Notes under the pieces: model-generated
The model's database searches: none
Told to the model about the DNA's origin: nothing
What the model saw: only the letters and a program-made list of their open reading frames with translations
Position numbers and translations under genes: made by a program
Part shown: positions 30,979 through 43,595 of the stretch, one piece after another
Numbering within the stretch: position 1 is the first letter of the stretch
Layout: the number at the start of each line of letters is the position of its first letter
Assembly (NCBI RefSeq): GCF_030818655.1
Contig: NZ_JAUTAN010000001.1
Span: forward strand, 2,604,001 to 2,668,000
DNA: 64,000 nucleotides
From: Nocardioides zeae
Lineage (GTDB): Bacteria > Actinomycetota > Actinomycetes > Propionibacteriales > Nocardioidaceae
Reading direction: 5' to 3'

Positions 30979-32301
30979 ATGTCGACCACCACCACCCCCC
31001 GCACGGTCGCGGACCTCCTCGCCGCCGACCGCGCCCACGTCTGGCACCCCTACGCCTCGGCCACCCGGCCGGGCCCGGTGCGCCTCGTCGAGCGGGCGTA
31101 CGGCGCGCGCCTCGTGCTCGCCGACGACCCGGCCCGCCCGGGCGAGCCGCGGGAGGTCGTCGACGGGATGGCCTCGTGGTGGGCGGCCGTCCACGGCTAC
31201 GCGCACCCGGCCCTCGACGCCGCGGTCACCGAGCAGCTGGGGGCGATGGCCCACGTGATGTTCGGCGGGCTCACCCACGCCCCCGCCGTCCGCCTGGCCG
31301 AGCGGCTGGTGGAGCTCACCCCCGCCGGGCTCGAGCACGTCTTCCTCGCGGACTCGGGGTCCGTCGCGGTCGAGGTGGCGCTCAAGCTGGCGGTGCAGCA
31401 CCAGCGCGGGGCGGGTCGCCCGCGCCGCACGCGCATGCTCGCCCTCCGCGGCGGCTACCACGGCGACACCTCCGGCGCGATGAGCGTCTGCGACCCCGTC
31501 GGCGGCATGCACGCGCTCTTCCCGGGCCGGCTCGCCCCGCAGGTCTTCGCGCCCCGCCCCCCGGCCCGCGGCTCCGACCCGGCCGCGGTGACGGCGTGGG
31601 TCGACGAGGTGCGCGCGCTGGCCCGCGACCACTCCGACGAGCTGGCGGCGATCGTCGCCGAGCCGCTGCTGCAGGGCGCCGGGGGCATGCACGCCTACCC
31701 GGCGGCGTGCCTCGTCGCGCTGCGGGAGATCGCCGACGAGCACGGCCTGCTGCTCGTGCTCGACGAGATCGCGACGGGCTTCGGCCGCACCGGCACCCTC
31801 TTCGCCTGCGACGCCGCCGGGGTGCGCCCCGACGTGCTCTGCGTCGGCAAGGCGCTCACGGGCGGCTACCTCTCCGCGGCGGCCGTGCTCTGCACCCGGG
31901 AGGTGGCCCGCACCGTGAGCGACGGCGAGGGCGGCGGCCTGCTCCACGGCCCGACCTTCATGGGCAACCCGTTGTCCTCGGCGGTCGCGCTGGCCAGCCT
32001 CGACCTGCTCGCCGACGGCTCGTGGGCGGCCGACGTCGCCCGCATCGAGCGGGGGCTCGCGACGGGCCTCGCCCCGTTGCGCGACCTCCCGGGGGTGCGG
32101 GACGTCCGCACGTGCGGCGCGGTCGGGGTCGTCCAGCTCGACCGGCCCGTCGACGTGCCGCGGGCGACCGACGCCGCCGTCGCCGCGGGCGCGTGGCTGC
32201 GCCCCTTCCGCGACCTGGTCTACGCGATGCCGCCGTACGTCGCGTCCGACGCCGAGGTGGCGACCATCGTCGCCGGGATGACCGCGGCGGTGACGGCATG
32301 A
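30979..32301 (+). CDS. bioA: 7,8-diaminopelargonate aminotransferase (SAM-dependent)
   Basis: 440 residues. [13 protein letters not shown] and [20 protein letters not shown] at the N-terminus are BioA motifs. [16 protein letters not shown] binds the cofactor phosphate, [16 protein letters not shown] holds the PLP Asp, and the Schiff-base Lys is in [13 protein letters not shown] near 291. The ATG lies 9 bases after a TAGGGT box, so it is probably leaderless. It starts the bioAFD operon. Confidence 0.97.
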
Positions 32302-33437
32302 CCTGGGCCGCCTGGTGGGCCGGCCAGGCCCGCGAGCGGGAGGCCGCCGGGCTGACGCGCACGCTGCGGCCCCGCCCCGCCGACGACCCGACGACGGACC
32401 TGGCGGGCAACGACTACCTCGGGCTCTCCCGTGACCCGCGCGTCGTCGAGGCGGCCTCTGCGGCGGCACGCACCTGGGGCGCCGGGGCCGGCGCCTCACG
32501 GCTGGTGACGGGCACCCTCGCCGTGCACGTGGAGCTCGAGGACGAGCTCGCCGCCTGGACCGGCCAGCCCGCCGCGCTCGTGTGCTCGACGGGCTACCAC
32601 GCCAACCTCGCCCTCGTCACCGCGCTCGCCGACCCGGGCACGCTGGTCGTCTCCGACGCCCACGTGCACGCCTCCCTCATCGACGCCGTCCGGCTCGCCC
32701 GCGCCCGGGTGGCGGTGGTGCCCCACGCCGACGTCGACGCGGTACGCCGCGCGCTCGCCACCCACGCCGCCGAGGCCCCCGACGCTCGGGCGCTCGTGCT
32801 CGTCGAGTCCGTCTACTCCGTGCTCGGCGACGCGGCCCCGCTCACGGCCCTCGCGGACGTGGCCGCGGCGTACGGCGCCCTCCTCGTCGTCGACGAGGCC
32901 CACGGACTCGGCGTGCACGGACCCGGGCTCGTGGCCTCCGCCGGGCTCGCGGGCCAGCCGCACGTCGTGCTCACCGCCACCCTGTCGAAGGCGCTCGGCG
33001 CCCAGGGCGGTGCCGTGCTCGGGCCGGTCGCGCTCGTCGAGCACCTGGTGAACCGCGCACGGCCCTTCATCTTCGACACCGGGCTCGCGCCGACGTCGAC
33101 CGCGGGCGCCCTCGCCGCGCTGCGCGTCGCCCGGGACGAGCCGTGGCACGCCGCCCGCGTGCGCGCCCGGATGCGCGCACTGGCCGCGGCCCTCGGCGTA
33201 CCCCCGGCGGCCGGGGCGGTGCTGTCCGTCCCGATGCCGTCCCCGCAGGCGGCCGTGGCCGCCCAGGCCGACCTGCTCGGGCGGGGCGTGCGCGTCGGGT
33301 GCTTCCGCCCGCCGTCCGTGCCCGACGGTGTCGCCCGGCTCCGCGTGACCGCCTCGGCGGGCGTCGACGACGCCGCCTGGGACCGGGCCCTCGCCCTCCT
33401 GACGGACGTCGTCGGCGGCGTGCGGGAGGCCGCGTGA
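32298..33437 (+). CDS. bioF: 8-amino-7-oxononanoate synthase
   Basis: 379 residues, ATG overlapping the bioA stop. [47 protein letters not shown] [19 protein letters not shown], and the PLP lysine in [18 protein letters not shown] near 235. Start [11 protein letters not shown] and end [12 protein letters not shown] are typical. It condenses pimeloyl-ACP/CoA with alanine. Confidence 0.97.
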
Positions 33438-34159: not shown

Positions 34160-35517
34160 GCCACCTCCAGCAGCGTCGCCTCCCGTCCGCGGCCGGCGCC
34201 GATCATCACGCCGAGGGGCAGACCGTCCGCCGTGGTCGCGAGGGGCAGCGAGATCGCGGGCTCGCCCGTGGCGTTCTGGAGCGGCGTGAAGGCCACCCAG
34301 TCCAGGAGCCGGTCGATCACGGTCGCGAAGTCCAGGGTCGGGTCGAGGTGGCCGACCGGGGGCGTGACCGTCGCGACGGTCGGGGTCAGCACGACGTCGT
34401 GGTCGGCGAAGAACGCGGCGCTGAGCCGCTCGGAGCGCGCCAGCCGGGCGATCGCGCCGGGGAGGCGGTGCATCCGCCGCGCCGCGTGGCGCGCGAGCCC
34501 CCGGGTGAGGTCGTCGAGCCGGGACGGGTCCCACGTGCCGCGGTGGCTCGCTCGCCCGGTCGCGACGAGGAAGGTGGCCAGGAAGCCCCAGTAGAGCAGG
34601 AAGTCGTCGCGGAACGACGGCGGCACCGGCGGCTGCTCCAGCTCCACCACGTGGTGACCCAGCTCCTCGAGCAGGCGGGCCACGCCCAGCGTCGCCTCGC
34701 GTACCTCGGGGCTCGCGACCGTGCCGACGGACGTGGTCACGACGGCCACCTTCAGCCGCTTGGTGCCGGGCCGCGTGATATCCCCGACGGGGGCGAGCGC
34801 GAGGTTGCGGTATACGCGCTCCGCCTCGCGGAGGTACGCCGCCGTGTCCCGCACCGACCGGGTCACCACGCCGTCCGCGACGATCCGCACGGGCATGTCG
34901 CGGAACACCTTGTCCTGCGCGAAGCGGTTGCGGGTCGGCTTCAGCCCCACCAGGCCGCAGGCCGCCGCGGGGATGCGGATCGAGCCTCCTCCGTCGTTGG
35001 CGTGCGCGATCGGCACGACCCCCGCCGCGACGAACGCCGCGGAGCCCGCGGAGGACGCCCCCGCCGTGCGCGTCGGGTCCCACGGGTTGCGCACCGCCCC
35101 GAGCCGCGGGTGCTCCGCGGAGGCCGAGAAGCCGAACTCCGACAGCTGGGACTTGCCGATCGGCACGACCCCGGTCGCGCCGTACATCCGGAAGAAGTCG
35201 CCGTCCCTGGCCGCCGGCCGGGCGACGAACGCGTCGCAGCCGTCCTGCGTCGGCAGCCCGGCGACCGCGACGTTGTCCTTCACGACCGTCGGCACCCCGG
35301 AGAAGAACCCGGGGCGCGGGTCGCGCGCCTGCCGCCGCGCCCGCGTGTAGGTGTCGAGGGCCAGGCCGTTGAGCGTCGGACCCACCGCCTCGCACCGGGC
35401 GATCGCGGCGTCCACGACCTCGACCGCGGAGACCCTCCCGGCGGCCAGGTGCTCCGCGAGACCCACGGCGTCGAGGTCGCCCAGGGCGTCGTCACCGAAC
35501 GCGTGCACTCTCGTCAT
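34114..35517 (-). CDS. Amidase-signature hydrolase
   Basis: 467 residues. The Ser-cisSer-Lys triad is visible: Lys in [14 protein letters not shown] near 80, cis-Ser in [14 protein letters not shown] near 155, and nucleophile Ser in [17 protein letters not shown] near 178. It is soluble, with no leader. Substrate not predictable; amidase-signature enzymes hydrolyse amides or activate Glu/Asp-tRNA, but this is not GatA, as gatBC are absent and the length and motifs differ. Not obviously linked to biotin, though a biotin amide hydrolase would be an interesting guess. Confidence 0.88.
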
Positions 35518-35640
35518 GCGCGCACGCTACTGACGGGTCACCCGGGGGGCCACCTCTCCCGCCGTTCCCGTGGACGGGGCGGGGCCCTGTCCGCCGAGCG
35601 CGGCCGTCGTCCACGGAACGCGGGACGTCCCGGGAAACCG

Positions 35641-35688
35641 TTGACGCGTCGACGCCGCCGTCCCTACCTTCTCTTCTAGTCTTCTAGA
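35641..35688 (+). promoter_or_regulatory. Promoter and probable GntR operator of the TrpA-like/kinase operon
   Basis: TTGACG (35641-35646) and TACCTT (35665-35670) are spaced 18 bases apart, a good housekeeping-type promoter. Directly after it lies TCTTCTAGTCTTCTAGA (35672-35688), a tandem of TCTTCTAG with an embedded TCTAGA palindrome, in strong contrast with the GC-rich surroundings. It covers the expected start of transcription. This is the natural site for the GntR/HutC regulator encoded by the second gene. Confidence 0.65.
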
Positions 35689-35708
35689 TGAGTGGGAGTG
35701 ACCTGACG

Positions 35709-36513
35709 ATGAACCGCCTGACGTCCCGGCTGCGCGCGGTGCGAGCCAGCGGACGCCTGTTCGTGCTCGGCTTCCTGCCGGCCGGTTACCCCGGGCGCTC
35801 GGGCTTCGTGGCCGGGGTCGCCGCCGCGTTCGACGCCGGCGCCGACGCCCTCGAGATCGCCATCCCCAACCCGCCCCTGCCGCTGGACGGCCCGCTCATC
35901 CAGGCCGCGGGCCAACAGGGTGCAGCCGCCATCAGCGGACCCCACGAGGGCCTCCGCCTGGCCGCGCTGCAGCGGCGGGAGCCCGACCAGGCGGTCGTCG
36001 CCCTCGCCTACCGCCACGCCCGCCGAGGAGCTCGGCCAGCAGGGGCTGCTCCAGACGTGCCTCGACGCCGACGTCGACGCGGTCCTCATGCCCGAGCACT
36101 CCTTCGCCGAGCAGATCCAGGCCGCCACCGCGGCGCGTCGGGTCGGGCTCGAGCAGGTCCTGTTCATCCACCTCGAGAAGGACCTCGCGCTGCTGCGCGA
36201 CCTGCCCTTCGCCGACCCGGTCGTCTACGTGCAGTCGGCCGACCTCCAGACCGGCGGCACCTTCGACCCCGCCAAGGCCCGCGAGCGGGTCACCGAGCTG
36301 CGCGAGGCCATGGGCGGGCGCGACGCCCACGTGCTGGTCGGCTTCGGGGTCCGCGGACCCGACGAGGTCGAACTGCTCGTCGACACCAGCGCCGACGGTG
36401 CGGTGATCGGCACGACGCTCGTCGCTGCCGCCGGCGAGGGCGAGCACGCCGTGCGCCGGCTGGTCCGCAGCGTGCGCCGGGCCGCCGAGCGCGAGGACCG
36501 CGTCCGTGCCTGA
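35709..36513 (+). pseudogene. TrpA-like TIM-barrel lyase, first copy; apparent +1 frameshift
   Basis: About 267 residues if one extra C near 36011-36012 is removed. The first frame (ATG at 35709 with GGGAG upstream) reads MNRLTSRLRAVRASGRLFVL to VVALAY; the second continues with ATPAEELGQQGLLQTCLDAD to the stop at 36513. It resembles tryptophan synthase alpha: Glu49 in ALEIAIP and Asp60 in LDGPLIQAA sit at exactly the catalytic positions of E. coli TrpA. The phosphate-gripping GFGVRGPDE and ADGAVIGTTLV are also kept. No TrpB, TrpC or other trp gene is near. It opens the operon and overlaps the regulator gene by 8 bases. Whether the frameshift is real or a sequencing indel cannot be told here. 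Confidence 0.75.
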
Positions 36514-37336
36514 CGATCCCGAGGCCTTCGCGCGCGCGGTGCGCCGCAGCCGCCCCGACGCCGGGGGCACGGCCAAGTACCTGGCGATCTGCCGCGACGT
36601 CACCGAGGCGATCGAGACGGGGCGTCTGGTGCCCGGCTCCCTCCTGCCCTCGCAGAAGGAGATGGCCGACCACTTCGGCGTCACCGTGATGACGCTCCGC
36701 CAGGCGCTCGGCGTGCTCTCCGACCAGGGACTGCTGCGCGTCGAGCACGGCCGCGGGACCTACGTCGCGCGCCGCCCCTACCGACTGCCGATCGACGTGC
36801 TGACCAGCTTCCGCGCGTCGGTCGAGGCCCGTGGCAGCGCCATGGGCACGCAGATCCTCAGCGCCGAGGTCGTGCCGGCACCCCCGGGCGTCCCCGTGCG
36901 GATGGGGCTCGAGACCGACCGGGTCTTCGCGCTCGCCCGCTTGCGCACCGTGGACGGAGTGCCCTTCGTCTACACGATGTCGCTGCTGCCCGTCGAGATC
37001 GGCACGGCGCTGCGCATCGACGAGGTCGGCGGGGCGTCGCTCTACGACGCCCTCGCCGAGCAGCTCGGGCTGCGGGTCGAACGCGCGGTGGAGACCTTCC
37101 ACGCCACCGCCATGGCGACCGACGCGGCGGCAGCACTCGGCCGGTCGGCGGGCTCGCCCGCCCTGGTCAGCAGCCGCATCACCTACACCGCCGAGGGCGT
37201 GGCCGTCATCGACGACCGCGCCACCATGCCCGGCGACGCCGTGGAGATCTCCACGGAGCGTCGGGTCCACGACCTCCCGCTCCAGCTCGTCCCCACGAGC
37301 CGGTCCGACGACGACGGCGCCGTCGGACCGACCTGA
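36506..37336 (+). CDS. GntR/HutC-family regulator (UTRA ligand domain)
   Basis: 276 residues, GTG overlapping the previous stop. Winged helix at about 24-90: KYLAICRDVTEAIETGRLVPG, LLPSQKEMADHFGVTVMTLR, LLRVEHGRGTYVARRP. UTRA domain from about 105: VFALARLRTVDGVPFVYTMS, LYDALAEQLGLRVERAVETF, SPALVSSRITYTAEGVAV. UTRA regulators bind small phosphorylated sugars, amino-acid derivatives or similar ligands. Its position as second gene suggests it controls this operon through the TCTTCTAG repeats at 35672-35688. Confidence 0.9.
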   Translation: MPDDPEAFARAVRRSRPDAGGTAKYLAICRDVTEAIETGRLVPGSLLPSQKEMADHFGVTVMTLRQALGVLSDQGLLRVEHGRGTYVARRPYRLPIDVLTSFRASVEARGSAMGTQILSAEVVPAPPGVPVRMGLETDRVFALARLRTVDGVPFVYTMSLLPVEIGTALRIDEVGGASLYDALAEQLGLRVERAVETFHATAMATDAAAALGRSAGSPALVSSRITYTAEGVAVIDDRATMPGDAVEISTERRVHDLPLQLVPTSRSDDDGAVGPT

Positions 37337-37392
37337 AGCACCACCGCCCGAGCACCACCCGAACCCCCGCAGGACACTCTCCAGGAGTCACC

Positions 37393-38418
37393 ATGGCCAT
37401 CAGCCGCAGGACCTCGCTCGCCGCGCTCGCCACCACCGTCACGCTCGTCGCCGCCGGATGCGCGTCCAACCAGGACAACACCGGCACGAACGCCGACGCC
37501 GCCGACGCCGAGACCAGCACCATCACCATCGCGATCGACGTGCCGTTCCACCCGATCTTCGACTACCTCATGGCCACCTCGGCGCCCGACTTCGAGGAGA
37601 TGGGCTACGACGTGGAGTTCGAGGTGCTGGACGCCACCACGCAGGTGCCCTCGTTCGGGCGGGGCGACGTCGACGTGATCACCACCGTGCCGTCGTTCCA
37701 GCCGCGGATCCAGGAGCAGTACGGGATCGACACGACCTACTTCTTCCCCATGGCCCGCTGGACCCCCGGCCCGGAGCTCCTCGTCGCGCCGGACTCCTCG
37801 GTCGACTCCATCGAGGACCTCGCCGGCAAGAGCGTCGCCATCGCCCCGCTCAGCAGCCGCTTCGGCGCCGAGCAGGCCGCCGTCGCCGCGGCCACCGGCG
37901 ACACCATCGACGAGTACTTCGACCTCACGGAGACCGACGCCGCCGCCCAGGAGCTCACGCTCGGCCGTGTCGACGCCGCGTTCGTCGAGGCGCCCGCCAC
38001 CGCCCCGCTGCTCGCCGAGGGCTACCGCCCGGTCTTCAGCGTGCAGGAGGCCTTCGAGGAGGCGTTCGGCGACCCGGCCGTCATGAACGGCGGGTTCATC
38101 GCGAGCACCGACTTCGTCGACAAGAACCCCGAGTTCGTCGACGCCCTCGTGCAGCTGACCCAGGAGGCCTGGACGCTCTACCAGGAGGACCCGGACACCG
38201 TCATCGCGGAGGCCGCGGACGTCAGCGGCATCGCGGCGGACCAGCTCACGCTCGTCGGCGAGGTGCTCAACCTCTCGGGCACCACCGAGGAGCAGAAGAA
38301 GGTCACCGAGCAGGACGTGGAGACCTGGACCGAGATCTACCCGCTCCTCGCCGAGTCGGGCTTCATCGAGTCCGCCCCCGCCGACCCGGCCGCGCTCTTC
38401 CAGATCACGGGCGAGTGA
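37393..38418 (+). CDS. SsuA/NMT1-type ABC substrate-binding lipoprotein
   Basis: 341 residues, AGGAGT before the ATG. Lipobox TLVAAGCASN, Cys near 21. Mature part: TITIAIDVPFHPIFDYLMAT, FGRGDVDVITTVPSFQPRIQ, PDSSVDSIEDLAGKSVAIAP, PVFSVQEAFEEAFGDPAVMN. This is the type II fold of nitrate/sulfonate/taurine/thiamine-precursor/riboflavin-binding proteins. It does not look like a sugar-binding protein, although the operon encodes a sugar-type kinase, so the ligand may be an aromatic or heterocyclic molecule with a polyol part. Confidence 0.88.
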   Translation: MAISRRTSLAALATTVTLVAAGCASNQDNTGTNADAADAETSTITIAIDVPFHPIFDYLMATSAPDFEEMGYDVEFEVLDATTQVPSFGRGDVDVITTVPSFQPRIQEQYGIDTTYFFPMARWTPGPELLVAPDSSVDSIEDLAGKSVAIAPLSSRFGAEQAAVAAATGDTIDEYFDLTETDAAAQELTLGRVDAAFVEAPATAPLLAEGYRPVFSVQEAFEEAFGDPAVMNGGFIASTDFVDKNPEFVDALVQLTQEAWTLYQEDPDTVIAEAADVSGIAADQLTLVGEVLNLSGTTEEQKKVTEQDVETWTEIYPLLAESGFIESAPADPAALFQITGE

Positions 38419-38419
38419 C

Positions 38420-39310
38420 GTGAGCACCCACATCGAGGCCGGGGGGCGCCTGGCCCAGCCGGGCGGCACCGAGGGCAGCGGCCCCTCCCGCCCTCGGCGT
38501 GAGCCCGACCGGGGCGGGGAGCGTGCGGCCCGCCCCGGCCGCGGCCGCGGGCTGGTACGGCGCTGGATCCGTCCCGCGCGGGTCGTGCTCGCCGCGCTCG
38601 TGATCCTGCTGGCGTGGAACCTGGCGGCGCCCCACTACCCCGGTTACGTCCTGCCCGCCCCGATCGACGTCTGGACCTCCTTCACCTCCACGTGGAACCG
38701 CGGGGTGTGGATCGAGGAGGTCTGGGCGACCCTGCAGCACCTGCTGCTGGCGTTCGGGATCGTGCTGGTCGCCGGACTGCCGCTGGGCATCGTCATCGGC
38801 CGCTCGAAGATCGCCGAGGACCTCAGCCGGGTCGTGCTCGTCTTCCTCCAGACCGTGCCCACGATCGTGCTGATCGCCCTCGCGCTCGTCGTCGCCGGAG
38901 CCTCCACCAGCTCCGTCGTCGGCGTGACGGTGGCCGGGTCGATCACCTACTTCCTGCTCAACGTCATCCAGGGCACCCGCGCCATCGACCAGGACCTGGT
39001 CGACATGGCGCGGGCCTACCGGGCCTCGGAGGGCGCCATCATGCGCACCGTCGTGCTGCCCGCCGTGGTGCCGTACTTCCTCGCCGGCGCCCGCATCACC
39101 CTCGGTGTCGCGTGGCAGATCACCCTGTTCGCCGAGTACCTGATGGGTGCCGAGGGCATCGGCTTCCAGGTGAGCAGCGCGATCAAGCTGCTCGACACCA
39201 AGGCCGTCTTCATGTGGGGCCTCAGCGTCGTCGCGATGACCCTGGTGCTCGAGTACGGCGCGTTCCGCCCGGCCGAGCGCCGCCTCACCCGTCACGTCAA
39301 GAAGGGCTGA
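38420..39310 (+). CDS. SsuC-type ABC permease
   Basis: 296 residues. After a basic, Arg/Gly-rich N-terminal extension of about 50 residues come six membrane helices. VWATLQHLLLAFGIVLVAGL, PLGIVIGRSKIAEDL, and the ATPase-contact loop DMARAYRASEGAIMRTVVLP are BPD_transp_1 motifs. The GTG lies 1 base after the binding-protein stop. Confidence 0.92.
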   Translation: MSTHIEAGGRLAQPGGTEGSGPSRPRREPDRGGERAARPGRGRGLVRRWIRPARVVLAALVILLAWNLAAPHYPGYVLPAPIDVWTSFTSTWNRGVWIEEVWATLQHLLLAFGIVLVAGLPLGIVIGRSKIAEDLSRVVLVFLQTVPTIVLIALALVVAGASTSSVVGVTVAGSITYFLLNVIQGTRAIDQDLVDMARAYRASEGAIMRTVVLPAVVPYFLAGARITLGVAWQITLFAEYLMGAEGIGFQVSSAIKLLDTKAVFMWGLSVVAMTLVLEYGAFRPAERRLTRHVKKG

Positions 39311-39313
39311 CCC

Positions 39314-40132
39314 ATGGCCACCACCTCCGCGCCGATGATCGCCTTCCGCGACGTCGGCAAGACCTACCCGAAGACCACGGCTCCGGTCATGACCGGCGTG
39401 GACCTCGAGATCGAGCGCGGCGAGCTGGTCGCGCTCATCGGCCCCTCGGGTTGCGGCAAGTCGACGCTGCTCAACCTGCTCGCCGGGCTGACCGACGCGA
39501 CGACCGGGACGATCGACGTGGCGGGCAGCGCCGGCACCGAGGAGCTGCGGAGCGCCTACGTCTTCCAGAACCCCCGGCTCCTCCCGTGGCGCTCGGTGCG
39601 CCACAACGTCGAGTTCGGGCTCGAGCAGGCGGGCGTGCCCGCCGCCGAGCGGCGCCGGCGGGCGAACGAGGCCCTGGAGCTCGTCCACCTGGGCGAGCAC
39701 GGGGAGAAGTACCCGCACCAGCTGAGCGGCGGCATGCAGCAGCGGGCGGCGCTCGCCCGCGGCCTGGCCCTCGAGCCCGACCTGCTGCTCCTCGACGAGC
39801 CGTTCGGTGCGCTCGACGCGCTCACGCGCAGCTACCTCCAGGAGGAGCTGCTCTCGATCGTGCGCCGCTTCGGCACCACGACGCTCCTCGTCACCCACGA
39901 CATCGACGAGGCCCTGCTCCTGGCCGACCGGATCGTCGTGATGTCGAGCCGTCCGGCGCGGATCAAGCGGGTCGTGACGGTGCCCTTCGGACGCGAGCGC
40001 GCGCTCGACTCCGTGCTCGCGCACCCGCAGTTCGTGCCGCTGCGCCACGAGATCCGCGACCTGCTCCGCCCGGAGGTCGCCGCCTCCGACCCCGCGGTCG
40101 AGGCCGGCGCCCCGGAGGTGCTCTCGTCGTGA
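39314..40132 (+). CDS. SsuB-type ABC ATPase
   Basis: 272 residues. Walker A LIGPSGCGKSTLLNLL, Q-loop FQNPRLLPWRSVRHNV, signature HQLSGGMQQRAALARGL, Walker B LLLLDEPFGALDALT, switch His LLVTHDIDEALLLADR. It starts 3 bases after the permease stop and ends overlapping the second TrpA-like gene. Confidence 0.94.
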   Translation: MATTSAPMIAFRDVGKTYPKTTAPVMTGVDLEIERGELVALIGPSGCGKSTLLNLLAGLTDATTGTIDVAGSAGTEELRSAYVFQNPRLLPWRSVRHNVEFGLEQAGVPAAERRRRANEALELVHLGEHGEKYPHQLSGGMQQRAALARGLALEPDLLLLDEPFGALDALTRSYLQEELLSIVRRFGTTTLLVTHDIDEALLLADRIVVMSSRPARIKRVVTVPFGRERALDSVLAHPQFVPLRHEIRDLLRPEVAASDPAVEAGAPEVLSS

Positions 40133-40893
40133 GGACCCTCGCGAACGGGCTCGGCACGGTGGTCCGGAGCCGTGCCGGGCGGCTCCTGGTGTGCTACCTC
40201 CCCCACGGCGACCCCGCCACCCCCGACGCCACGGCACGTCTCTACGCCGACCACGGCGTCGACGTGCTCGAGGTCGGCGTGGCGGGTGGCCACGCCCTGC
40301 TCGACGGCCCGGTCGTCAGCGCGTCGATGGAGCGCGCGACGGCCGCCGGGTGCACCGGGACCGCCGCCGCCGAACGCCTCGCCGCCGACCTGGGCGACGT
40401 GGACGACAGCGCGGCCGTGTGGATGAGCTACCAGGAGGAGCCGGGCGCGGCGTACCTCGACGTCGTCGCCTCCTCGGGGGCCGGGGGCGTCCTCCTGCCC
40501 GACGCCGACCAGCTCGCCCTGGTCGACACGGCCGCGGCGGCCGGCCTGGCGGGCGTCCCGTTCCTGTCGCACGCGCCCACGGAGGCCGAGGTCGCGGCGG
40601 CGCGGCGAGCGGAGGGGTACGTCATGCTGGCCGCGGCCGACGGGGTGACCGGGCACCGCGACCACGTGGCTCCCGGCAACGCGGCGACGATCGCCCGCCT
40701 GCGGGAGCAGGGCGTCACGGCGCCCGTCCTCCTCGGCTTCGGCCTCTCGACCGGTGACCACGTGCGGGCCGCGCTCGCCATGGGCGCCGACGGGGTCATC
40801 GTCGGCTCGGCCTGCGTGCGCGCCGCCGAGGCCGGGCGGGGAGCGCTCGTCTCCCTGCTGTCCTCGCTGCGGACGGCGGTGGACGGTGCCTGA
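40129..40893 (+). CDS. TrpA-like TIM-barrel lyase, second copy
   Basis: 254 residues from a GTG that overlaps the ATPase stop. The same fold and catalytic pair as tryptophan synthase alpha: Glu48 in DVLEVGVAGG and Asp59 in LLDGPVVSASMERA, one residue offset from E. coli Glu49/Asp60. AAADGVTGHRD corresponds to the TrpA active-site loop, and LGFGLSTGDHV plus ADGVIVGSACV to the phosphate-binding loops. The TrpB contact region is divergent and there is no trpB near. TrpA cleaves indole-3-glycerol phosphate by retro-aldol chemistry; here a related aryl- or heteroaryl-glycerol or polyol phosphate is the plausible substrate. Two TrpA-like proteins in one operon might act as a pair or on successive substrates. 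Confidence 0.85.
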   Translation: MRTLANGLGTVVRSRAGRLLVCYLPHGDPATPDATARLYADHGVDVLEVGVAGGHALLDGPVVSASMERATAAGCTGTAAAERLAADLGDVDDSAAVWMSYQEEPGAAYLDVVASSGAGGVLLPDADQLALVDTAAAAGLAGVPFLSHAPTEAEVAAARRAEGYVMLAAADGVTGHRDHVAPGNAATIARLREQGVTAPVLLGFGLSTGDHVRAALAMGADGVIVGSACVRAAEAGRGALVSLLSSLRTAVDGA

Positions 40894-42409
40894 GCCCACG
40901 CCCCCGGTGGCGACGGCGGAGCCGGGCGTCCCGACGTACGTCGGCGTCGACATCGGCAGCACGACCACGAAGGCCATCGCGTTCAGCGCCGACGGGTCGC
41001 CCCTCGCCTCGGGCTCGGCGGGCTACGAGATCAGCCGGCCGGCGCCCGAGCGCGCGGAGCAGGAGGGCCACGACTGGATCGACGCCGTCGACGCGTGCGT
41101 CGCGCGGCTCGCCGCGCAGGTGGACCTCGGCCCGGTCCGGGCGATCGGTGTCACCAGCCAGGTCGACACCCACGTGCCGGTCGACGCGGCGCTCCGCCCG
41201 CTCCGCCCGGCCCTGCTGTGGCAGGACGTGCGGACGGCCGCCACGGCCGAGGCCCTCAACGAGCGCCTCGGCCCCGAGGGCCGGCTCGCCGGCTGGGGGG
41301 ACGAGCGGCCCATCGACGCCTCCAACCCGGTGCCGCGCGCGCTGTGGCTCGCCGAGCACGAGCCCGACGTGTGGGCCGCCACCCGGTGGCTCCTCCTCCC
41401 GAAGGACCTCGTCGTCGCGTGGCTGACCGGCGCGCCGTCCGCCGACCCCCTGGGGTCGTTCAAGGTGGTCGGCCCCGACGGGCGGTACGTCGCCGGGGTC
41501 GCCCACGCACCGGGCCTCGCCGAGCGCCTCGCGCCCCTGGCGTCGCCGGAGGTGCCCGCGGGGCGCACCGTGCGGCCGTGGCACGGGATCCCGGCCGGCA
41601 CCGTGGTCGCCACGGGGACGATGGACGCCTTCGGCAACGTCCTCGGCTCGGGCCTGCACGAGGTCGGCCACACGATGGCGACGATCGGGACGTCGGTCAT
41701 CGTGGCCGCCCTCGGCGCCGACGGCACACCCGCGCCGGGCGTCGTCGCCTTCGCCCCGTTCCGCTCGCGGCACGTGCACGCCGGCCCCACCCAGTCCGGC
41801 GGGGACTCGCTGCGCTGGTGGGCGCGGCTGTCGGGGCACTCGGTCGAGGAGGTCGTCGCCGCGGCCGCGACCGCCGCTCCCGGCTGCGGCGGTGTGGTCT
41901 TCGCGCCGCACCTCATGGGCGAGCGGGCCCCGCTGTGGGACGACCACGTCCGGGCCTGGTTCACCGGGATGAGCTCGTCGACCACGTTCGCGGACCTCTC
42001 GCGCGCCGTGCTGGAGGGCGTCGCGTACTCCCTGCGCGAGCTGCTGGAGGCCGTCGAGGTGGCGACCCCGCGGGCCGAGGCGCTGACGTTGTCGGGCGGC
42101 GGCTCGCGCAGCGAGCTGTGGTGCCAGATCGCCGCCGACGTCACCGGCCGGGTCGTCCGACGCTCCCGCGAGGCCGACACCGCCGTCGTCGGCGCGGCGA
42201 CGCTGGCCGCCTCGGCCCTCACGGGCGACGACCCGTGGCGGGCCGCTGCGAGCCTCGCCCAGGTCGACCGCGTCTTCGAGCCCGACCCGGGCGTCACCGC
42301 GACGTACGACGAGCTGTTCGCCCTCTACCGCCAGACCTACGCGGCGCTGGGCCCCGTCCACGACCGGCTCGCCGCGCACCGCTCGACCACCCCAGGAGGA
42401 ACCCCGTGA
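40886..42409 (+). CDS. FGGY-family carbohydrate kinase (xylulokinase-like)
   Basis: 507 residues, GTG overlapping the TrpA-like stop by 8 bases. ATP-binding start YVGVDIGSTTTKAIAFSADG, LLWQDVRTAATAEAL, the catalytic Asp in VATGTMDAFGNVLGSGL near 250, GTSVIVAALG, and LTLSGGGSRSELWCQIAADV of the adenosine motif. Family members phosphorylate sugars or polyols. Together with the phosphate-binding TrpA-like lyases, it suggests that an imported polyol-bearing compound is first phosphorylated, then cleaved. Confidence 0.92.
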   Translation: MPEPTPPVATAEPGVPTYVGVDIGSTTTKAIAFSADGSPLASGSAGYEISRPAPERAEQEGHDWIDAVDACVARLAAQVDLGPVRAIGVTSQVDTHVPVDAALRPLRPALLWQDVRTAATAEALNERLGPEGRLAGWGDERPIDASNPVPRALWLAEHEPDVWAATRWLLLPKDLVVAWLTGAPSADPLGSFKVVGPDGRYVAGVAHAPGLAERLAPLASPEVPAGRTVRPWHGIPAGTVVATGTMDAFGNVLGSGLHEVGHTMATIGTSVIVAALGADGTPAPGVVAFAPFRSRHVHAGPTQSGGDSLRWWARLSGHSVEEVVAAAATAAPGCGGVVFAPHLMGERAPLWDDHVRAWFTGMSSSTTFADLSRAVLEGVAYSLRELLEAVEVATPRAEALTLSGGGSRSELWCQIAADVTGRVVRRSREADTAVVGAATLAASALTGDDPWRAAASLAQVDRVFEPDPGVTATYDELFALYRQTYAALGPVHDRLAAHRSTTPGGTP

Positions 42410-43188
42410 CCGCCACCCTCCCGCTCCCCGGCCACCCCGACCTGCGCGACAAGGTCTGCCTCGTCACCGGGGCCAGCCAGGGCATCGGGGAGGCGACGGC
42501 GCGCTACCTCGCGGAGTGCGGCGCCACGACCGTGCTGGCCGCCCGCAACCTGGCCGCCTGCGAGGACGCGGTCGAGGACATCACCGCCGCGGGCGGCACG
42601 GCCGTCGCCATGCAGCTGGACGTGACCGACGACGCCGCCGTCGCGGCGACGGTCGCGGAGGTGGAGGCCCGGTACGGCGCACTGCACCTGGCGTTCAACA
42701 ACGCCGGCACGCAGGGGCCGGCCGCGCCCCTCCACGAGCAGGACGACGCCACCGTGCGCCAGGTGCTGGAGGTGAACCTCTTCGGCGTCATCTCCTGCCT
42801 CCGCCACGAGGTGCCGGCCATGCTCCGCGCCGGCGGCGGTGTCATCGTCAACACCGCCTCCGTCGGGGGTGTGATCGCCGCCCCCGGCATCGCGCCCTAC
42901 TGCGCCAGCAAGCACGCCGTGGTCGGCCTCTCCAAGTCGGCCGCCGCCGACTACGGCCGGCGGGGAGTGCGCATCAACGTGCTCGCCCCCGGCTCGGTGC
43001 GCACCCCGATCCTCACCGACTGGCTCGCCGAGCCGGGAGCGCTCGAGCACATGGAGTCCCTGACCCCGCAGGGCCGCATCGCCGAGCCCGAGGAGATCGC
43101 CCCGGTGGTGGCGTGGATGCTGTCCGACGCGTCGTCGTTCATGACCGGCTCGGTGGTGACGGCGGACGGCGGGTACACCGCCCTCTGA
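42406..43188 (+). CDS. Short-chain dehydrogenase/reductase
   Basis: 260 residues, GTG overlapping the kinase stop, AGGAGG just upstream. NAD(P) motif VCLVTGASQGIGEATARYL, NNAG in LAFNNAGTQGP, catalytic Ser in VNTASVGGVI and Tyr-x-x-x-Lys in PYCASKHAVVGL, C-terminal GSVVTADGGYTAL. Last gene of the operon; presumably oxidises or reduces the substrate or a cleavage product. Confidence 0.93.
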   Translation: MTATLPLPGHPDLRDKVCLVTGASQGIGEATARYLAECGATTVLAARNLAACEDAVEDITAAGGTAVAMQLDVTDDAAVAATVAEVEARYGALHLAFNNAGTQGPAAPLHEQDDATVRQVLEVNLFGVISCLRHEVPAMLRAGGGVIVNTASVGGVIAAPGIAPYCASKHAVVGLSKSAAADYGRRGVRINVLAPGSVRTPILTDWLAEPGALEHMESLTPQGRIAEPEEIAPVVAWMLSDASSFMTGSVVTADGGYTAL

Positions 43189-43230
43189 GGTCGCGCGCTC
43201 TGAGGTCCCGTGCTCTGAGGTCCCGCGCTC
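43186..43230. repeat. Three tandem 15-bp units at the SDR stop codon
   Basis: TGAGGTCSCGYGCTC occurs three times in direct contact; the first copy begins with the SDR stop TGA. It has the same length and copy number as the tandem repeat at 29560, but a different sequence. Confidence 0.75.
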
Positions 43231-43244
43231 CCGGCGGGCCGGGC

Positions 43245-43595
43245 TCAGTGCTCCGCGACGCAGAACTGGTTGCCGTCGGGATCCGCCAGCGTGACCCAGC
43301 GGAAGTCGCCCATCGAGCGCTCCGCCACCAGCGTCGCCCCGGCGTCGACGAGACGCTCCACCTCGGCGTCGAGGTCACCGGAGGCAGCCCCGAGGTCCAG
43401 GTGCATCCGGTTCTTGCCGGGCGTCGGGTCGTCGACCTTCTGGAAGCCGAGCCGGGGCCCGCCGGGGAGCTGGAGCACGACGAACCAGCCGTCGTTCTCC
43501 GCCTCCACCGTGGCGCCCGTCTGCGCCGACCACCACGCCGCGAGGGGGCTCGGGTCGGTCGTGTCGAGGGTGATCATGCCGAGGGTCAGGGTCAT
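43245..43595 (-). CDS. VOC-family (glyoxalase-like) protein
   Basis: 116 residues. One complete VOC unit: GMITLDTTDPSPLAAWWSAQ, GPRLGFQKVDDPTPGKNRMH, and VTLADPDGNQFCV. It has His and Glu candidates for a metal site (MHLDLG, and the Asp/Glu near the end). Substrate unknown; members include dioxygenases, glyoxalases and resistance proteins. The ATG has no clear Shine-Dalgarno sequence. Confidence 0.85.
   Translation of the reverse strand: MTLTLGMITLDTTDPSPLAAWWSAQTGATVEAENDGWFVVLQLPGGPRLGFQKVDDPTPGKNRMHLDLGAASGDLDAEVERLVDAGATLVAERSMGDFRWVTLADPDGNQFCVAEH

Follow-up and report, generated by a model that had tools for sequence, protein, structure and literature searches.

Why would Nocardioides zeae, a soil-type actinobacterium, place two relatives of the tryptophan synthase alpha subunit (TrpA) in an operon without trpB, next to an importer, a sugar-type kinase and a regulator? 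The question is raised by positions 35641..43188 of the window, i.e., of the whole 64,000-nucleotide stretch (assembly GCF_030818655.1) that was analysed. Open reading frames and a profile search gave eight genes here in tandem order, all on the plus strand, and a candidate regulatory site at their head:

35675..35701, plus strand: candidate GntR operator, TCTAGTCTTCTAGA then TGAGT, an imperfect palindrome that overlaps an upstream ATG at 35688
35709..36513, plus strand: TrpA-like gene 1 (TrpA1, clade 1), FRAMESHIFTED, two PF00290 pieces in different frames
36506..37336, plus strand: GntR-family regulator with a UTRA domain, HutC-type (PF00392 and PF07702 above cut-off)
37393..38418, plus strand: NMT1/SsuA-type substrate-binding protein (PF09084 above cut-off, TIGR01728 below cut-off)
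38420..39310, plus strand: ABC permease, SsuC/TauC/NtrB-like (PF00528; every NCBIfam match under cut-off)
39314..40132, plus strand: ABC ATPase, NtrCD/TauB/SsuB-like (PF00005; TIGR01184 237.8 bits, below the cut-off of 291.8)
40129..40893, plus strand: TrpA-like gene 2 (TrpA2, clade 2), intact (PF00290 102.5 bits)
40886..42409, plus strand: FGGY kinase, xylulokinase-like without the xylulokinase Met-His motif (TIGR01312 271.9 bits, below the cut-off of 380.25)
42406..43188, plus strand: SDR oxidoreductase (PF13561; PRK07231 subfamily 221.4 bits, above the cut-off of 215)

The original prediction described eight plus-strand genes, most of them overlapping, that form one operon, and the coordinates agree with it, giving overlaps at four junctions (8 nt for TrpA1/GntR, 4 nt for ATPase/TrpA2, 8 nt for TrpA2/FGGY, and 4 nt for FGGY/SDR), gaps of 1 nt between the binding-protein and permease genes and 3 nt between permease and ATPase, and a spacing of 56 nt from GntR to the binding-protein gene. 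A scan of positions 35500-43400 found no promoter or terminator, and neither a sugar isomerase nor a class I/II aldolase was recognised in the operon by Pfam and NCBIfam profile search. The N-terminus of the binding protein, judged by eye, is lipoprotein-like.

Both genes identified as encoding TrpA relatives do match Pfam Trp_syntA (PF00290), TrpA2 with 102.5 bits against a gathering cut-off of 27, and source annotations, where given, name these proteins or their relatives tryptophan synthase alpha. It could therefore be argued that they are ordinary TrpA duplicates for tryptophan synthesis, or the relic of a trp operon, particularly as TrpA2 (101.2 bits) falls only 1 bit short of the equivalog cut-off of NCBIfam trpA (TIGR00262, 102.35). 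However, N. zeae TrpA1 (64.7) and the clade-2 protein of genome G1222 (85.8) are also below this cut-off, whereas all four controls pass it with 204.8–272.5 bits, the genuine trpA of the same genome scoring 204.8. The cut-off alone is weak for clade 2, because TrpA2 misses it by so little and an Olsenella PTS-linked relative passes it with 159.9 bits. As had been noted, the operon has no trpB; a genuine trpA (G000:C1:1787894-1788667) and trpB (1788727-1789872) lie together about 0.85 Mb away. The tree has a group of 23 rows (97/85) that takes in every TrpB-linked row (6 in all) and no row of clade 1 or clade 2, which sets both proteins apart from TrpB-linked TrpA. Given this separation and the genuine trpA/trpB pair elsewhere, we rejected a role in tryptophan synthesis; together with the loss of a loop-2 motif described below, these observations make that explanation barely credible.

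The tree, midpoint-rooted for drawing only and made without an AU test, and the residue counts use 16, 15, and 7 rows for clades 1, 2, and 3, picked from more matches, and a reference group of 18 that consists of the 6 TrpB-linked rows (linkage by HMM in one, by annotation in three, and by translations read by eye in two) and 12 rows with the trpB neighbour unchecked. Not part of the residue counts are two unplaced rows and another six homologues; Ser-Asp-Pro is present in five of these six homologues, and the sixth, P0031, which falls within clade 2 in the tree, has Leu-Asp-Pro and Met. Placement of P0031, hit_L010, and the G1222 clade-2 row is unsure because of their long branches, and the assignment of the last to clade 2 is based on the tree and a kinase match.

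Within this sample, the catalytic machinery of TrpA appears to be retained while its surroundings have changed. The acid pair Glu49 and Asp60 (E. coli TrpA numbering), predicted to be kept in both proteins, is present in both by alignment and is not lost among homologues (21/21 and 26/26 rows in two alignments); in the residue counts the Glu occurs in 56/56 rows and the Asp in 16/16 clade-1 and 15/15 clade-2 rows. The phosphate-binding loops were likewise correctly described as kept, with their glycines in 56/56 rows. By contrast, the loop-2 Ser-Asp-Pro motif, found in 18/18 reference TrpA, is absent from all rows of clade 1 (0/16), clade 2 (0/15), and clade 3 (0/7). New polar residues are conserved, namely Asp165, Gln142, and Gln182 in clade 1 (16/16) and His148 in clade 2 (14/15), and clade 2 has short deletions after strands 3 and 4. 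One position with a role in the pocket changes to Phe.

TrpA2 could alternatively be a lyase like plant BX1 that produces free indole from indole-3-glycerol phosphate. Its predicted model (pLDDT 94.6) has the TrpA/BX1 fold, and BX1 is the top PDB match of clade 2 by both sequence and structure, although its lead over other TrpA is small. The loop-6 Arg, which is said to contact phosphate in BX1 (PMC12930369, excerpt), is kept in 14/15 clade-2 rows but only in 2/16 clade-1 rows. However, the BX1 active site includes Tyr170 and Val172 according to an excerpt of the same source (PMC12930369), and the Tyr170 position is Met in 14/15 clade-2 rows, Tyr being kept in clade 1. The Val172 position is Gln in 16/16 clade-1 rows and Ala in clade 2, the latter not being telling as Ala also occurs in 5/18 reference rows. 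Each clade therefore alters only part of the pocket. With a gene context of importer, kinase, and GntR regulator also speaking against it, an indole-producing role for TrpA2 is very unlikely.

The original prediction numbered the residues of TrpA1 as in a whole protein and overlooked that the gene has no single open reading frame in this assembly, since a one-nucleotide frameshift lies between about 36,004 and 36,030. The N-terminal piece is in the frame of 35709 and the C-terminal piece in the next frame, with its stop at 36511-36513; against PF00290 they score 26.5 and 43.7 bits, respectively (gathering cut-off 27). Intact orthologues are present in N. zeae and relatives (e.g., L006:5556-6380). 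The start is likely the ATG at 35709 rather than that at 35688, because residue 1 of a metagenomic relative (P0083) aligns with residue 8 of the 35688 frame, and because the upstream ATG sits within the candidate binding site of the regulator. If the frameshift of TrpA1 is genuine and not an error of assembly, TrpA2 would be the functioning enzyme of this strain.

The kinase belongs to the FGGY family (FGGY_N PF00370 101.1 bits, FGGY_C PF02782 108.3 bits), with PDB matches 5vm1 (E 2.8e-51) and 2itm (E 2.2e-45). It is not assigned to XylB: aligned to the xylulose kinase 2itm, it carries Val-Asp in place of Met-His, a motif with a functional role in xylulokinases. It is 42% identical to the kinase that adjoins the clade-2 TrpA in G1222, where a GntR gene and a Peripla_BP_4 binding protein are also found. 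TrpA1, GntR, and FGGY genes occur together in 4/4 Propionibacteriaceae genomes found with TrpA1, where a ribose-type ABC ATPase and permease accompany them and 3/4 also have a sugar-binding protein (importer families typed with Pfam in the L052 set and for the binding protein of L050). The expected co-occurrence thus holds for the core of TrpA-like protein, kinase, and regulator; it does not extend to the NMT1-type importer and the SDR relatives, which among the clusters and loci compared are confined to the N. zeae group, nor to the pairing of TrpA1 with TrpA2, which was not found outside that group among the clusters examined. Between the two module types, kinase identity is only 24-30%, so the substrates may not be the same.

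The family is rare. Clade 1 occurs in 7/391 genomes of the order and, in a 396-genome sample of the phylum, only in the genome studied here. A first genome search for clade 2 at E 1e-20 does not count this clade, because most of what it returned (283/293 genomes) was true TrpA, and a stricter cut-off was used afterwards. In one Olsenella genome a TrpA relative is part of a PTS-Gat transporter cluster, and a class search at E 1e-30 found the Olsenella-type relative in 0/148 other genomes. Three metagenomic pairs, P0086/P0023, P0089/P0022, and P0104/P0008, appear to share one contig each, judging from equal contig sizes (31619, 65176, and 9340). Plasmids yielded no TrpA1 relatives and five weak matches to TrpA2 (H1-H5); the three examined of these five (H2, H3, and H5) were genuine trp operons.

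These neighbourhoods bear on the substrate. It had been proposed that the imported compound is aromatic or heterocyclic, bears a side chain of the glycerol or polyol type, and is phosphorylated and then cleaved by the TrpA-type enzyme to free the ring. This now seems improbable, since orthologous modules have ribose-type importers, a more distant relative is associated with PTS-Gat, and active-site positions have become Gln in clade 1 or Met in clade 2.

Regulation of the operon by its own GntR protein is suggested by the palindrome at 35675..35701, which is likely the GntR operator. In 7/7 genomes from two families, all chosen for carrying TrpA1, the pattern has its best match in the genome immediately before TrpA1, with no mismatch in six and one in Enemella, where a perfect 18-bp palindrome stands at the same position. 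The regulator is 43-47% identical (232-242 aa) to the TrpA1-adjacent GntR of the four Propionibacteriaceae genomes. Allowing up to 3 mismatches within the 64-kb window alone, matches were at chance level, and a regulon search that tolerated 2 mismatches or fewer found, apart from the TrpA1 site, no more matches than a reversed-pattern control. A second site with 2 mismatches, before a sulfate-binding-protein-like gene, was viewed in this genome and not counted as a target; its letters are identical in three Nocardioides genomes.

Taken together, we hypothesize that this is a catabolic operon for a sugar- or polyol-type compound in which the TrpA-type enzymes act as stand-alone retro-aldol lyases, a reading drawn from sequence comparison to which we give a probability of roughly 0.5. 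In this model, the ABC importer would take up a sugar- or polyol-like compound, and the FGGY kinase, while not a canonical xylulokinase, would phosphorylate a terminal hydroxyl. One or both TrpA-type proteins, without TrpB, could then cleave the phosphorylated compound by a retro-aldol reaction via the Glu/Asp pair, and the conserved catalytic and phosphate sites suggest that glyceraldehyde 3-phosphate would be released together with a small fragment bearing a carbonyl. The SDR might act on this fragment or on the substrate in the N. zeae lineage, and the GntR/UTRA protein might repress the operon, which would then be self-regulated, through the conserved palindrome where the first gene begins. 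It looks as if TrpA relatives, along with an importer and a sugar-type kinase, have been turned to the breakdown of a phosphorylated sugar-like compound. The model is supported by the recurrence of TrpA-like, FGGY, GntR-UTRA, and importer genes in re-assorted sets, by the conserved operator, by the lost loop-2 motif and altered active-site positions, by the PTS-Gat cluster of the Olsenella relative, and by the genuine trpA/trpB pair elsewhere. The kept catalytic pair and loops and the separate position in the tree agree with the original idea of an operon, distinct from tryptophan synthesis, that joins import, a kinase, and a TrpA-type lyase. Counting against it, the importer here is of the NMT1/SsuA class rather than a sugar class, the kinases of the module types diverge, each clade alters the pocket in part only, the loop-6 Arg is missing from most clade-1 rows, the family is rare, and TrpA1 is broken. 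Further, a plain ketose phosphate lacks the indole ring that assists TrpA chemistry (PMC12930369, excerpt), so that retro-aldol cleavage may not be transferable to it.

The operon could still be catabolic if the TrpA-like proteins were isomerases, epimerases, or catalysts of another barrel-superfamily reaction on a phosphorylated sugar. Pocket residues differ between clades 1 and 2, the new polar residues are conserved, and a clade-3 relative in Olsenella lies in an operon with BtpA, which is another barrel family, and with a nucleoside-phosphorylase-family protein, a PfkB kinase, and an Fe-ADH. Both retro-aldol acids are, however, present in every aligned clade-1 and clade-2 row, and the cluster is without any other recognised aldolase, so we regard such a reaction as unlikely, if worth keeping in mind.

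If the TrpA-type proteins are catabolic lyases, a set of tryptophan synthase alpha annotations is wrong, and TrpA would be a model of a partner-dependent biosynthetic enzyme turned stand-alone and catabolic more than once, with the operon supplying the kinase, importer, regulator, and operator for finding the substrate. More tentatively, and with considerable doubt, the TrpA family may hold several unrecognised lineages of stand-alone phosphorylated-sugar aldolases (clades 1 and 2 in actinobacteria, clade 3, which is larger, in Olsenella and clostridia, with individual lines in Olsenella and G188), in which the acid-base pair of TrpA replaces the Schiff-base lysine or metal, a third enzymatic solution to the aldol cleavage of sugar phosphates, hidden under the tryptophan synthase alpha label. 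No catabolic TrpA-like enzyme was described among the matches listed in the literature searched, by title and start of abstract.

Compared with known systems, the operon differs from those of TrpA in having no trpB, and its TrpA-like proteins lack the loop-2 Ser-Asp-Pro, carry active-site changes, in clade 2 have the short deletions after strands 3 and 4, and stand apart in the tree. With the plant BX1/IGL lyases they share the TrpA family and an expected independence of TrpB, BX1 being the closest solved structure for clade 2; however, BX1 has Tyr170/Val172 (PMC12930369, excerpt) where clade 2 has Met/Ala and clade 1 Tyr/Gln, and the gene context here is import and phosphorylation. The kinase comes closest to xylulokinase (XylB) of the FGGY family (TIGR01312, 271.9 bits), although the score is under the cut-off of 380.25 and Gln-Val-Asp-Thr stands where XylB has Gln-Met-His-Gly. 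Operons of the L-rhamnose and L-fucose type break down sugars with a kinase plus an aldolase, and like them the operon studied here combines a regulator, an importer, an FGGY kinase, and a putative carbon-carbon lyase. This kind of operon is thus already known, and the new element would be the TrpA-type barrel that fills the aldolase slot, with no sugar isomerase or class I/II aldolase recognised beside it.

The operon of interest comprises the following feature, assigned from translation and profile matches.

Window 35,675-43,188, plus strand: palindromic site and eight tandem genes

The genes encode, in order, a first TrpA-like protein (TrpA1), a GntR/UTRA regulator, an NMT1-type binding protein, a permease, an ATPase, a second TrpA-like protein (TrpA2), an FGGY kinase and an SDR. 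TrpA2 is 89% identical to its counterpart in N. zeae (L006), a close relative. Upstream of the operon, two genes that by eye resemble bioA and bioF of biotin synthesis (window 30979-33437) are followed by a minus-strand amidase-like gene.

The original prediction placed the TrpA-like pair outside tryptophan synthesis, and three lines of evidence bear this out. First, the source genome (4.38 Mb, one contig) has a normal trpA with an adjoining trpB elsewhere. Second, in a 64-row tree of TrpA homologues, midpoint-rooted for drawing, all six TrpB-linked TrpA fall inside one group of 23 (support 97/85), and both TrpA1 and TrpA2 lie outside it. The TrpA1 lineage (clade 1) is monophyletic at 100/100 on a long branch, while that of TrpA2 (clade 2), into which the context-free homologue P0031 falls, groups with a third TrpA-like lineage (clade 3) and two single lines (25 rows, 99/94). 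Third, N. zeae TrpA1 (64.7) and, narrowly, window TrpA2 (101.2) score below the NCBIfam trpA cut-off of 102.35, compared with 204.8-272.5 for four TrpB-linked controls; a PTS-linked relative from Olsenella exceeds the cut-off (159.9).

Reading TrpA1 as intact, as was done previously, overlooked a frameshift. PF00290 matches it in two separate pieces, each in its own frame, and translation places a one-nucleotide shift between ~36,004 and 36,030. Its orthologues are unbroken in N. zeae (L006:5556-6380) and in the same-genus genomes G307 and G309, and the metagenomic protein P0083 is an intact TrpA1, identical to the window piece over the N-terminal 100 residues and 93% identical in the C-terminal part. 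Compared with N. zeae, the two TrpA1 pieces show synonymous/non-synonymous codon differences (23/10 and 26/12) that resemble those in the other operon genes (GntR, 35/19; binding protein, 42/12; ATPase, 50/10; TrpA2, 55/28; FGGY, 103/34; SDR, 42/13), which suggests either a recent lesion or a mistake in the assembly.

Among 391 genomes searched from the order, TrpA1 was found in seven, namely the source genome, two of the same genus and four Propionibacteriaceae (the same four among 197 genomes of that family), and nowhere beyond the source genome in a 396-genome phylum sample. All four Propionibacteriaceae loci share the order TrpA1, GntR, two-domain sugar ABC ATPase, permease and FGGY, assigned by eye and likeness, with Pfam run on the L052 set and the L050 binding protein. 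A sugar-binding protein comes next in three (L050, L051 and L053); none was called beside the kinase in L052. Identities to these loci are 47-50% for N. zeae TrpA1, 43-47% for the window GntR and only 27-34%, depending on the alignment, for FGGY. A search of the class at E 1e-50, covering 393 genomes besides the source, detected clade 2 in one (G1222), beside a sugar-binding protein, FGGY (42% identical to the window's), GntR (33%) and a sugar ABC ATPase. That TrpA-like/FGGY/GntR cluster (L072:2254-8340) is divergent from the genome's own trpBA, making true TrpA and TrpA-like genes close neighbours. The predicted association of TrpA-like genes with FGGY holds in the Propionibacteriaceae genomes found to carry TrpA1 (4/4) and in G1222, but the importers there are sugar-type. 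From these gene sets, the window operon is read as a composite: its TrpA1-GntR head comes from one module and its TrpA2-FGGY pair from a second, and the importer is of yet another kind.

Seven genomes, picked for carrying TrpA1, were searched for TCTAGTCWTCTAGR, and each has it immediately 5' of TrpA1. Six match it with no mismatch and Enemella, one of the four Propionibacteriaceae, with one; the Enemella version is an exact 18-bp palindrome. In each of these genomes, a GntR gene comes after TrpA1. Within the window by itself, matches to the pattern are about as common as chance would give (2 vs. 1.48 expected at ≤3 mismatches), and therefore the weight rests on position and conservation. The TrpA1-upstream site is the top genomic match in each genome; the remaining matches (1-2 mismatches) show no excess over a reversed-pattern control. 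As no convincing second target was found in these seven genomes, the operon seems self-contained in its regulation. A site two mismatches from the pattern, CCTAGTCTTCTCGA, occurs 5' of a sulfate-binding-protein-like gene in the source genome (L089, G000:C1:4102715), with identical letters in G307 and G309.

More distant relatives occur in other settings. The PTS-linked Olsenella protein, 38% identical to TrpA2, adjoins PTS-Gat EIIC, EIIA and a PRD regulator. Clade 3 numbers 536 database proteins at E 1e-8; among the best 120 of these, which were listed, all that are named are called tryptophan synthase alpha. In 7/7 clade-3 rows, Glu serves as the second catalytic acid. One clade-3 operon was delineated from profile matches and partly by eye.

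L066:613-9389, Olsenella sp. Marseille-P4559: clade-3 operon

It looks nucleoside-related, with an isochorismatase, a PfkB kinase, a nucleoside-phosphorylase family protein, BtpA, an Fe-alcohol dehydrogenase and an ABC importer, nucleoside-type by eye. G188 has a further TrpA-like gene on a 3.1-kb contig (L054:19-2987). Its neighbours there are a sugar-binding regulator of the SorC type, a phosphatase that looks HAD-like by eye, and the end of a GntR gene that shares 44% identity with the window GntR over 103 aa.

No description of a catabolic TrpA-like enzyme of this kind was found among the listed matches in the open-licence literature; the stand-alone TrpA literature consulted concerns BX1, the plant indole-3-glycerol phosphate lyase, and engineered TrpA (PMC11574760, PMC12930369).

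Gene content, conservation, the operator-like site and the residue pattern are direct observations, and the fold is a prediction. Taken together, we hypothesize that a substrate would be imported by the operon's ABC importer, phosphorylated, cleaved by a TrpB-free retro-aldol reaction to glyceraldehyde 3-phosphate and a small carbonyl compound, and converted by the SDR. The aromatic substrate originally proposed is disfavoured: judged from sequence, a sugar- or polyol-type compound is favoured, since ribose-type importers accompany these TrpA-like and GntR genes in other genomes and since the active site is changed at some positions. However, the window's lineage has an importer of the NMT1/SsuA class, and the indole ring, an aid to TrpA chemistry, is absent from ordinary sugar phosphates; both points weigh against a sugar or polyol. 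The window kinase itself is XylB-like, but it does not have the Met-His motif of XylB.
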